64,000 nucleotides of DNA. It comes from Planctomycetota bacterium. GTDB lineage: Bacteria > Planctomycetota > Phycisphaerae > Phycisphaerales > Phycisphaeraceae. Every line of letters begins with the position of its first letter. Positions within the stretch are counted from its first letter, which is position 1. Positions 54,171 to 56,908 of this stretch are shown here, piece by piece. The notes beneath the pieces were generated by a model. The model had not been told where the DNA came from, made no database searches, and saw nothing but the letters and a program-made list of their open reading frames with translations. Position numbers and translations under genes: made by a program. The stretch covers positions 1,612,001-1,676,000 of the forward strand of contig CP066225.1 of NCBI GenBank assembly GCA_016350165.1, given 5' to 3'.

Positions 54171-54506
54171 TCAATCAAAATCACTTGGCCGTTCAATCAT
54201 GCGAATCGCCTGATGAATATCTTGTGGTATTTCAAAGTTATACTTATGAAGCTGCTTCATTTTCTTTTTAAAAACCTTCATCACCACAACAAAATCATCA
54301 AAATTCTCTTCCGGTATATCACGCTCTAAAGCAAACCTGCAAACAATAATGACATTACTAATCTGATGTAAAATCATTTGCCTATGGATATCCCTATCAT
54401 CCCGACCTCTATCTTTTTTCTTAGCTAAACCAACAAAATTCCTTTCCAAACTTTCCGCCAAGTCGTTCTTCAAATAATAAATCGTATCTTCAATACTAAA
54501 ATTCAT
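54171..54506 (-). CDS. Hypothetical helical protein
   Basis: 111 residues from ATG 54506, with AGGAG about eight bases upstream; the frame stays open to 54551. Charged and probably all-helical (DDRDIHRQMILHQISNVIIV, VVVMKVFKKKMKQLHKYNF), with no signal peptide, membrane helix or known motif. It converges with the murJ fusion, with 20 bases between the stops. Confidence 0.6.
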   Translation of the reverse strand: MNFSIEDTIYYLKNDLAESLERNFVGLAKKKDRGRDDRDIHRQMILHQISNVIIVCRFALERDIPEENFDDFVVVMKVFKKKMKQLHKYNFEIPQDIHQAIRMIERPSDFD

Positions 54507-54559
54507 AGAACCAACTCCTGCATACATTTTCACAAAACAAATACTAACCATACTAATTT

Positions 54560-55062
54560 AAGTTGAAATCAAAATCGACAATGACTCACAACCTAAAATC
54601 ATTATCCCACCATATTTATGTTCTCATTCCAACTTTATTCAAACTAAATACAACCAACGATACGTTTTCGTGCAATAGCACTCCAACCAAGTCCCACCAC
54701 ATACGCTTGAGTACAACAACTCCCCTCGTATATCTCATACATCCAACCCACGCCACTCCTACAACTCACTAATAGCCGGCGAGCCACGCTCGCCGTGCCC
54801 ACCACCTCACAGCACCTAACCTCACAAATCACACCCAACAAACGATACGCTACAGTGCAATAACTCAAACCACTTTCTTCATCAGCCGATACGTTTTAGT
54901 AAAACAACCCACCATCCCCCCAAACCTCGCCCAAAGCCCTCACCCCACCACCCCATCTTCAACCCAAATCTTCCACCCATCCCTCACCGGCCAATCAGTC
55001 CTCATAGGGCTCCAATCAAAACCACAAAAAACACAAGACAGCTTCCCCCACCAGCCTTTATA
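54560..55062. repeat. Repeat-rich intergenic island III, left part
   Basis: Holds DR1 copies at about 54651-54684, 54838-54866 and 54881-54910, and the REP-like hairpin at 54773-54798. A segment near 54988-55016 (GGCCAATCAGTCCTCATAGG...) resembles ones near 6104 and 56451. No gene is seen. Confidence 0.65.
54773..54798. repeat. REP-like hairpin, copy 2
   Basis: TAGC followed by the perfect stem CGGCGAGC-CAC-GCTCGCCG and TGC; compensatory partner of the copy at 5882-5907. Confidence 0.75.
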
Positions 55063-55064
55063 AT
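55059..55064 (+). promoter_or_regulatory. Candidate -10 box for the mini-FloA genes
   Basis: TATAAT 35 bases before GTG 55099. A transcript starting about 55071 would have a short leader carrying AGGGGAG (55088-55094). Confidence 0.45.
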
Positions 55065-55098
55065 GCGCCTATCAAAATCAACTCCAAAGGGGAGAATC

Positions 55099-55515
55099 GT
55101 GGAATACATCATCCTAGCATTCGCTTGCTTCTTCGGCCTCATCTTCCTCCTCATCTTGTACTCACAACTCAAAATCGCCGGACCATTCATCACCGCCAAA
55201 GCCTCTGGCGTACCCGTTCAATTTTCCGACTTCCTAGGCATGGCCTTCCAGCGTATCAACATCAACCTCATCACACGATCCTACATCAAACTCTACAAAG
55301 CAGACATCCAAGTCACCATCAACCAACTCGCCGAACACCACCAAAACGGCGGCAACATCATGCGCCTTACCTCCGCTCTCATCGCAGCCAAAAAATCTAA
55401 CATCGACCTCTCATGGGAAACAGCTCGTGACATCGATCTCATAGGCCCAGATAAATCCGCCAACCGTGTCATTCAAACCACCTCTCCAGAAATCATCGAG
55501 TGCTTCACCTCATAA
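55099..55515 (+). CDS. Mini-FloA: truncated flotillin-like protein, copy 1
   Basis: 138 residues from GTG 55099, preceded by AGGGGAG four bases upstream; an ATG at 55063 would add 12 residues without a ribosome site. One N-terminal membrane helix (EYIILAFACFFGLIFLLIL) is followed by a region that parallels the N-terminal part of the bacterial flotillin FloA: FSDFLGMAFQRIN against FloA's LVGMRLRRV, QLAEHHQNGGNIMRLTSALI against QLESHYLAGGN..R...ALI, then DIDLIGPD and SPEIIECF at the point where FloA reads NPKVIETP. There it stops; the SPFH domain and coiled coil of FloA (about 330 residues in B. subtilis) are missing. Copy 2 starts 41 bases after its stop. Confidence 0.8.
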   Translation: MEYIILAFACFFGLIFLLILYSQLKIAGPFITAKASGVPVQFSDFLGMAFQRININLITRSYIKLYKADIQVTINQLAEHHQNGGNIMRLTSALIAAKKSNIDLSWETARDIDLIGPDKSANRVIQTTSPEIIECFTS

Positions 55516-55555
55516 CCCCTCCACAACCTCACAACATGTATCATAGAGATTCATC

Positions 55556-55972
55556 ATGTCCTTCTACATCACCGCAGCCATCTTCCCCTCCATCCTGGCT
55601 TTAATCTTTTCACTCTTCATCCCACTCGACCCCCTACTCTATTGGCTCGAACTCCGATCCTCCAAAGTTCCCATTAAATTCTCCGACGTTCGCCATCTCC
55701 ACTTCCAACAACTCGACTATAAACTCATCACACAGTCCTACATCCAACCCTATCAAGCCGACATCAAAGTCCCCATCATCGCCCTCACCGATCACCACCA
55801 AAACGGCGGCAACCTCCCACGACTAACCTCCGCACTCATCACAGCCAAAAACTCAAGCATCAACCTCACATGGGAAACTGCTCGTAAAATCGACCTCATC
55901 GGCCCAGAAAAATCAACCCACCAACTCATCCAATCCACTTCTCCAAAAATCATCGAATGCTTCACCACATAA
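55556..55972 (+). CDS. Mini-FloA: truncated flotillin-like protein, copy 2
   Basis: 138 residues, the same length as copy 1. An N-terminal hydrophobic helix (ITAAIFPSILALIFSLFIPL) is followed by the same region: FSDVRHLHFQQLDYKLITQSYI, ALTDHHQNGGNLPRLTSALI, ETARKIDLIGPEKS and the end SPKIIECFTT. Both copies end within a residue of each other. Copy 2 has a weak ribosome site (AGAG) before ATG 55556 and is probably translated from the same transcript. The shared truncation point and continued open frames argue for maintained small proteins and not decaying floA remnants. Confidence 0.8.
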   Translation: MSFYITAAIFPSILALIFSLFIPLDPLLYWLELRSSKVPIKFSDVRHLHFQQLDYKLITQSYIQPYQADIKVPIIALTDHHQNGGNLPRLTSALITAKNSSINLTWETARKIDLIGPEKSTHQLIQSTSPKIIECFTT

Positions 55973-56908
55973 CCAATCACCCATACACATTTCCAACCAA
56001 CGCTAAAGCGCATCTTTCAACCAACTATATGCTTGAATAGAAAGTCCATTTTTCTCAGCCACTTACTAACGACTCGCCACAATGAAACCTCTCACCAAAC
56101 ACTTATCTCCAATCAACAACACGTTTCAGCACAACTTATCATCACCTCCTTCATGCAACCAACGACACGCGACAGCGCAACTTATCACCAAGCACTTGCC
56201 TCCAACCGACGATACGCTCTAGTGAAACAACCACTTTTCTTTCACCTTGTGATAACACGCTATAACAAATAATTCACAACGCAACATACATACAAACTGC
56301 AATCAAACCGCCACATAACCCCCAACAAACAACACACTCAAGTGATACAAATCCACACAACACCCACTCCCCAACAGACGACACGCTATAGTACAACAAC
56401 CCTCACCCCGCCACCCCATCTTGAACCCGAATCCTCTGCTCATCACCCCAAAGGCCAATCCGGCCTCATTGAGGATACCGCAATTAATTCTTCATAATTC
56501 TCACCCCCTTCAGCAAACCGCATACCAAAACCAACCCCTTCACAAACCGCGCGCACAAACACGCAATCGTCCCCCAAAACTCCATCAATTCCAGCACATT
56601 TCCAACCCATTCCACACCATTCTTTAACCATTCCAACTCATTTCAGCCTATTTCCAACTACGGGAAAGTCACCGAAAAACAATAAACCTTCACAAACGTG
56701 CGCACAAACACGCAAACCAAAATTCATAACTCCTTTGTTTTTCGCCAAACTTAACAATACCGCTCATCAATCCGACTAATACGCGCATAGACACATTTTC
56801 AAAACCCCATTTTAAGACCACCTCAAAAACCAACTTCCGAGCAAAACGCGCGCACAAAACCGAATTCTCCCACCAACCCCCACCATTCGCCATCTCATAA
56901 ACTCAAAC
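55973..56908. repeat. Repeat-rich intergenic island III, right part
   Basis: About 940 bases without a gene. It has DR1-like copies at about 56066-56091, 56109-56140, 56156-56186, 56202-56232, 56322-56353 and 56371-56402 (several degenerate). A CCATTCC/CATTTCC tract with 10-12 base spacing follows (about 56580-56655), ending in CTACGGG (56658-56664). Copies of the CGCGCGCACAAA motif lie at about 56548, 56697 and 56847. The stretch 56843-56863 is identical to 6327-6347. Confidence 0.7.

Follow-up and report, generated by a model that had tools for sequence, protein, structure and literature searches.

Half-flotillins in Planctomycetota: tandem genes for the membrane anchor and PHB subdomain-1 of FloA, with relatives often placed before floA

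The bacterial flotillin FloA (YqfA, SPFH5; PF12127, PRK13665) is described in S. aureus as a membrane segment followed by a six-helix PHB subdomain-1, a subdomain-2 containing helices and a sheet, then a coiled coil and finally a low-complexity region (PMC11222466, 2024). In the same account, deletion of helices 1 and 2 of subdomain-1 leads to loss of lipid binding and of confinement to microdomains, the lipid binding of this subdomain having been demonstrated for staphyloxanthin; FloA dimerises by PHB contacts close to strands 2 and 3, and NfeD touches the coiled coil (PMC11222466). An operon of nfeD and an SPFH5 flotillin gene is already known (yqeZ-yqfA type; PMC2636767, PMC11222466), and the operon descriptions in the former source mention no gene for the N-terminal domain alone. 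A second point of comparison is provided by the microProteins of plants and animals, which are single-domain relatives of larger multidomain proteins and act through protein-protein contact (PMC4807768, PMC7584889). Half-flotillins, or FloA proteins reduced to subdomain-1, were not mentioned in the titles and abstract openings of the open-access papers that the literature searches listed, which does not prove their absence from print.

Two genes in the window, by which we mean the whole stretch of 64,000 nucleotides analysed here, are, judged by profile matches, tandem and diverged copies of a protein paralogous to the N-terminal region of FloA (Table 1). This type, consisting of the membrane anchor and PHB subdomain-1 (S1), is called FloA-S1 in the following. 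An earlier note on this DNA had described both genes as intact reading frames of equal length, homologous to about the first 130 residues of FloA, and both points hold: the Pfam FloA profile PF12127 matches protein 1 at 6e-24 (profile positions 5-128 of 314) and protein 2 at 2.8e-17 (positions 7-128), each above the curated cut-off of 34 bits, and the NCBIfam FloA profile agrees with 87.5 and 61.7 bits, far under its full-length cut-off of 393 bits. The ribosome sites claimed for both genes are borne out for gene 1, whose site is strong, but for gene 2 the site is weak. Gene 1 could alternatively be read as 150 aa from an ATG at 55063, where there is no ribosome site. The two proteins are 53% identical (70/131), with a DNA identity of 80% over 273 nt.

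Table 1. Positions of the FloA-S1 gene pair, its predicted parts and the flanking repeats in the window
Feature	Position	Strand	Basis
FloA-S1 gene 1	55099..55515	+	138 aa from GTG, intact ORF, ends SPEIIECFTS
FloA-S1 gene 2	55556..55972	+	138 aa from ATG, intact ORF, tandem diverged copy, ends SPKIIECFTT
Ribosome-binding site AAAGGGGAG before GTG 55099	55086..55094	+	sequence; strong site
Predicted membrane helix codons, protein 1 residues 2-35	55102..55203	+	AlphaFold2 model; Kyte-Doolittle best 19-residue mean 2.73
Predicted codons of six S1 helices, protein 1 residues 42-127	55222..55479	+	AlphaFold2 model
Left intergenic repeats	54640-54681, 54825-54866		members of a genome-wide repeat family
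Right intergenic repeats	56145-56186, 56192-56233, 56312-56353, 56361-56402		members of a genome-wide repeat family

In the AlphaFold2 model of FloA-S1, calculated on a 43-row alignment (pLDDT 92.0), the membrane helix of protein 1 is followed by helices at residues 42-50, 55-67, 74-82, 87-99, 106-115 and 117-127, with lower confidence from about residue 111; they form three helical hairpins that begin at residues 42, 74 and 106, a spacing of 32. Both window proteins are predicted to possess the N-terminal transmembrane segment of FloA (best 19-residue hydropathy mean of 2.24 in protein 2) and the six-helix PHB subdomain-1. Our model of the genome's own full-length FloA (367 aa, mean pLDDT 80.7) has the matching helices at residues 69-154 and strands from residue 157 onwards, and the IIEC near the C-termini of the short proteins aligns with the first of these strands. 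Because the modelled helices match the division of FloA given in PMC11222466, FloA-S1 is assigned as anchor plus subdomain-1, and the models place the end of the short proteins where subdomain-2 begins, with the anchor and the complete subdomain-1 kept. FloA-S1 shares with FloA, by homology, the membrane helix together with PHB subdomain-1. At 138 aa, compared with 367 aa for this genome's FloA, it lacks subdomain-2 (the SPFH core), the profile match stopping at position 128 of 314, as well as the coiled coil and the C-terminal tail, the proteins ending at residue 138. The truncation point named in the earlier note is correct in that the proteins stop at the boundary of S1 and S2, where the canonical SPFH part begins; they do not, however, consist of everything before the PHB domain, since PHB subdomain-1 is retained.

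A role for FloA-S1 can be proposed from this anatomy. In S. aureus helices 1 and 2 of S1 are needed for lipid binding, and subdomain-2 and the coiled coil serve in dimerisation, in multimerisation and in the binding of NfeD (PMC11222466), so that FloA-S1 would enter the membrane microdomains of FloA without building scaffold. There it would take up microdomain lipid and space, and would thereby limit or space out FloA-NfeD assemblies. FloA-S1 would thus be the flotillin counterpart of a microProtein: like these it corresponds to one domain of a larger multidomain relative and is a suspected modulator, but where microProteins act via protein-protein contact, FloA-S1 retains a membrane helix and a lipid-associated domain (PMC4807768, PMC7584889). 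Competition for lipid is what we infer by carrying over lipid binding from the S. aureus protein. Direct capping of FloA by FloA-S1 is not expected from known contacts, as FloA-S1 has neither the part with the dimer interface nor the one touched by NfeD. The term “modulator of FloA,” put forward in the earlier note, would fit the evidence. For the window genes we assume the role of FloA-S1 or a drifted version of it; that they are FloA-S1 copies acting as a non-scaffolding companion of FloA, one that would limit FloA-NfeD assembly, is a reading we hold tentatively, with doubt somewhat outweighing belief.

A full-length floA exists elsewhere in the genome, which is a single contig of 5.23 Mb: a complete floA (profile positions 5-313), the sole other FloA match in a whole-genome profile search, lies 1.6 Mb from the pair. 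Neither tblastn of this FloA against the window nor the profile search found an SPFH-encoding remnant near the pair, frameshifted downstream or otherwise, and with the intact floA elsewhere this led to rejection of a split-gene reading. The pair is unlinked to floA and nfeD, both NfeD matches of the genome lying elsewhere. Repeats flank it on both sides, as stated in the earlier description of a “repeat island,” but the family is genome-wide, with 55 matches to the repeat CGATACGCTATAGTGCAACAA at up to two mismatches versus none for a reversed control, and the island at 54640-56402 is one of many such places in the genome. The window has no match to a 27-base version of the motif. In G243, the one congener examined, the flanking genes, which by eye we take to be MurJ-like and ClpP-like, are conserved at 66% and 73% identity, respectively, and the pair is absent from the interval; the only FloA match of that genome lies in a 368 aa frame. 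An ORF of 126 aa on the reverse strand of the window (54171-54551), which has no Pfam match, is likewise missing from this interval in G243.

Between the two window genes dN/dS is 0.71 (dS 0.50); the first 48 columns of the alignment taken alone give 0.93, and columns 49-140 give 0.60. Second codon positions are kept in 108 of 136 cases, as against 88 and 88 for the other two. When neutral evolution was simulated at the observed divergence with noncoding base composition, neither frame acquired a stop in 20 of 1036 runs, and a ratio as low was reached in 66 (36 for columns 49 on); with coding composition the corresponding numbers were 26, 85 and 47 of 1039. Because of these ratios and simulations the pair is considered probably coding and loosely constrained. 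The same values bear on an alternative, in which the pair is the decaying by-product of a partial floA duplication that was duplicated again and drifts without function in a repeat-rich intergenic stretch. Such decay would be in keeping with the ratio of 0.71, and of 0.93 at the start of the alignment, with the frequency of ratios as low among the neutral runs, with the absence of the pair at the syntenic place in G243, with the long branch above the pair in the tree described below (2.53 changes per column) and with the weak ribosome site of copy 2. It sits poorly with two frames whose DNA differs by 30% and which both still read through 138 codons, a combination uncommon among the neutral runs, and with the better preservation of second codon positions, the equal ends of the copies and the constraint on floA-linked relatives, so that we consider it unlikely, though worth taking seriously.

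The preferred reading of FloA-S1 as a companion of FloA concerns a type that recurs in the Planctomycetota. A search of 397 class genomes with PF12127, the window genome among them and at most five candidates scored per genome, gave matches in 337. Among 49 class genomes listed in full (47 with at least two matches and two with a weak single match), S1-type genes without the SPFH part were confirmed from the DNA in 16 (L065-L080), which together with the window genome makes at least 17 of 397; this sporadic distribution speaks against the main reading. A family search with the window pair in 51 genomes added five loci in four genomes, and a phylum search of 391 genomes, in which 58 multi-match genomes were followed, added 15 (L087-L101); about two dozen multi-match genomes, mostly from families f48 and f81, were left out of this follow-up, and the counts are lower bounds. 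Besides the window, there are at least 36 S1-type loci in 35 genomes. Eight of them (L079, L080, L096-L101) hold no more of S1 than its first part, L060 and L061 have no membrane helix, and about four carry extra domains (L072, L076, L088, L094, perhaps L095). Outside the 36 stand L081, which has N in the frame, the odd fusions L082 and L083, the longer forms L057 and L059, and an apparent N-terminal-only FloA in G345 that contains a run of N and was left uninterpreted. All 37 proteins of an alignment match PF12127 at 0.01 or better; they comprise the window pair, two longer forms and the products of 33 of the 36 loci. In a pattern scan of genome contigs with the window pair, none of 102 matches encodes a relative. 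A further scan with a floA-linked FloA-S1 is a weak control, one peptide motif being required: among its best 80 loci, by title 38 from Planctomycetota and 42 from elsewhere, an S1-only gene was present within flanks of about 3 kb only at L105, which its title, its coordinates and an identity of 100% mark as the record of the query itself.

Several of these loci deviate in form. L097, L098 and L101, all of one genus, are alike in consisting of the membrane helix and the first part of S1 only, with about 106-111 aa from the likely starts, and L079, L080, L099 and L100 are similarly short (membrane helix and first part of S1, about 106-111 aa); proteins of this kind possibly represent a separate conserved family. 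The FloA-like products of L057:378-1097 (239 aa) and L059:2417-3010 (197 aa) extend past S1 and stop before the coiled coil. L072:1784-2569 encodes two S1 domains in one protein of 261 aa before floA, and at L083:1326-2264 the start of S1 is fused, in a single frame of 312 aa, to an unrelated C-terminal part, presumably acetyltransferase-like, as judged by eye.

Directly upstream of a full-length floA and on the same strand are 15 of the 36 loci (L054, L055, L065-L067, L069-L076, L087, L088), the floA that follows L069 being cut by a contig end. L055 and L066 lie too close to a contig end for an upstream gene; in 12 of the 13 others the gene before FloA-S1, again on the same strand, exceeds the Pfam NfeD cut-off (L065, L067, L069, L070, L071, L072, L073, L074, L075, L076, L087, L088), which gives the order nfeD - floA-S1 - floA. 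In these 12 relatives floA-S1 is an insertion into the known flotillin operon (PMC2636767, PMC11222466), to which the window pair is unlinked. The thirteenth, L054, has a divergent gene in front and no nfeD, which counts against the main reading, as L054 belongs to a pair under selection: the orthologous short genes of G416 and G417 that include it have a dN/dS of 0.23 (dS 0.74), compared with 0.225 for the first 150 floA codons of these genomes, and by this measure are under purifying selection. A maintained short form, as the earlier note had suggested, is in this way upheld for the type, with 36 other loci, 15 of them before floA, and a low ratio in one orthologous pair, but less so for the window pair, given its weak constraint (0.71), the lack of floA or nfeD nearby and its absence in G243.

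The S1 protein of L076 (2084-2632) carries a C-terminal stretch homologous to the neighbouring NfeD domain (43% over 61 residues, 4e-13), and that of L088 (1754-2419), to which L094 (1828-2616) is homologous, has a weaker NfeD-like end (3e-5). The Pfam NfeD profile scores the fusion tails at 1.1e-4 in L088, below the cut-off, 0.19 in L076 and 0.12 in L095, and does not see NfeD in the tail of L094. By homology, two lineages appear to have joined S1 to an NfeD-like domain. Such fusions, like the operon order and the double-S1 protein in L072, could also be accounted for if FloA-S1 were a structural co-subunit or adaptor, belonging to the membrane complex of NfeD and FloA and not competing with it. 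This is improbable in our view, since the sporadic presence of FloA-S1 suggests that FloA manages without it in most genomes, and since the known contacts of FloA, as described in PMC11222466, fall outside S1.

By coordinates, 21 of the 36 loci do not lie next to floA. This proportion, the lack of a membrane helix in L060 and L061, and the continuation of the S1 start into an unrelated part in L083 would suit an independent module for binding lipid or ligand at the membrane, used alone for tasks unrelated to FloA; the repeated birth beside floA and the NfeD-like fusions point instead to FloA biology, and the genomes of all 36 loci also have a floA match that continues past S1 or, in G127, is cut by a contig end, which makes such independence quite improbable. 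That a frameshifted or misassembled floA was read as short genes is hardly credible for a single-contig genome with an intact floA elsewhere and no SPFH remnant found, and with floA-linked copies that precede a complete floA (cut at the contig end in L069).

The origin of the companion proposed here was addressed with a tree of 90 S1 domains, 24 of them from short genes; 20 of 44 short rows, the most divergent or odd ones including L075, had been dropped. The short form needs 13 changes on this tree, at least 11 of them forced by starred branches. With starred support, the short genes of L065, L066, L069, L070, L076 and L087 pair with their own adjacent floA, and L071 does so at weaker support (99/73), while L054 and L055 (L043 and L045 in the tree labels) are nested within the floA of their genus. 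L067, L072, L073, L074 and L088, several of them on long branches, do not pair with their own floA, which speaks against repeated pairing and against the main reading: L088 groups with L094 (100/99), L067 with L072 and L077 (93/91, unstarred) and the first domain of L072 with L074, flagged as long branches meeting, whereas the tree leaves the position of L073 unresolved. The bootstrap was unsettled, and the program gave warnings about the small number of columns and about long branches. A single ancient FloA-S1 family was rejected for ten floA-linked copies, their union in one clade giving p-AU 0.00016, a flattering value in that the ten were chosen after the tree had been seen and the long-branch L072, L073, L074 and L088 were omitted. 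For an origin of the window pair from the FloA of its own genus p-AU was 0.142, a value that neither demonstrates nor rejects it.

FloA homology stops at model positions 110-132 in 14 of the 15 floA-linked copies, the boundary between S1 and S2 being at 118-121; in L076 it stops at 77, the start of the NfeD-like domain. Taken together, the tree pairings and the shared breakpoint indicate repeated births of a similar half-protein, or its repeated homogenisation with a neighbour, as gene conversion between neighbours could produce the same tree. A broader reading, possible though rather doubtful, is that Planctomycetota repeatedly and convergently make, by partial duplication of floA at nearly the same breakpoint, a membrane-anchored, S1-only antagonist or spacer of flotillin microdomains, which would amount to a membrane microProtein of bacteria in which the lipid-binding anchor, and not the oligomerising part, is retained. 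Recurrent half-flotillins, often right before floA, suggest a natural tuning of bacterial lipid-raft scaffolds, and FloA-S1 suggests a general way to tune scaffold assemblies in membranes. The S1 domain occurs alone beside floA many times, sometimes joined to an NfeD-like domain, which makes its function directly testable.

Comparison with known folds gave no significant match for S1: Foldseek gave no match of the S1 model to a solved fold at E≤0.001, and the best VIA-align Z scores, 6.0 for designed helical repeats and 5.8 for a TAL effector, are weak helical-repeat resemblances in the range of common helical arrangements. In the models of FloA-S1 and of the genome's own FloA, the S1 helices repeat with a period of 32 residues. 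The autocorrelation of the S1 profile likewise has its maximum at 32, a modest one that 25 and 22 of 1000 column shuffles equal (805 of 1000 in a control region), and direct HH alignment of the three S1 repeat units was not significant. S1 resembles a series of helical hairpins, each of 32 residues and variable in number, and from sequence comparison the repeat number appears to vary among FloA proteins. At L188, the floA of G509 on the reverse strand, a full-length FloA has one added S1 unit of 32 residues, and the full-length FloA proteins of L186, L187, L189 and L190 carry somewhat longer inserts at the same site.
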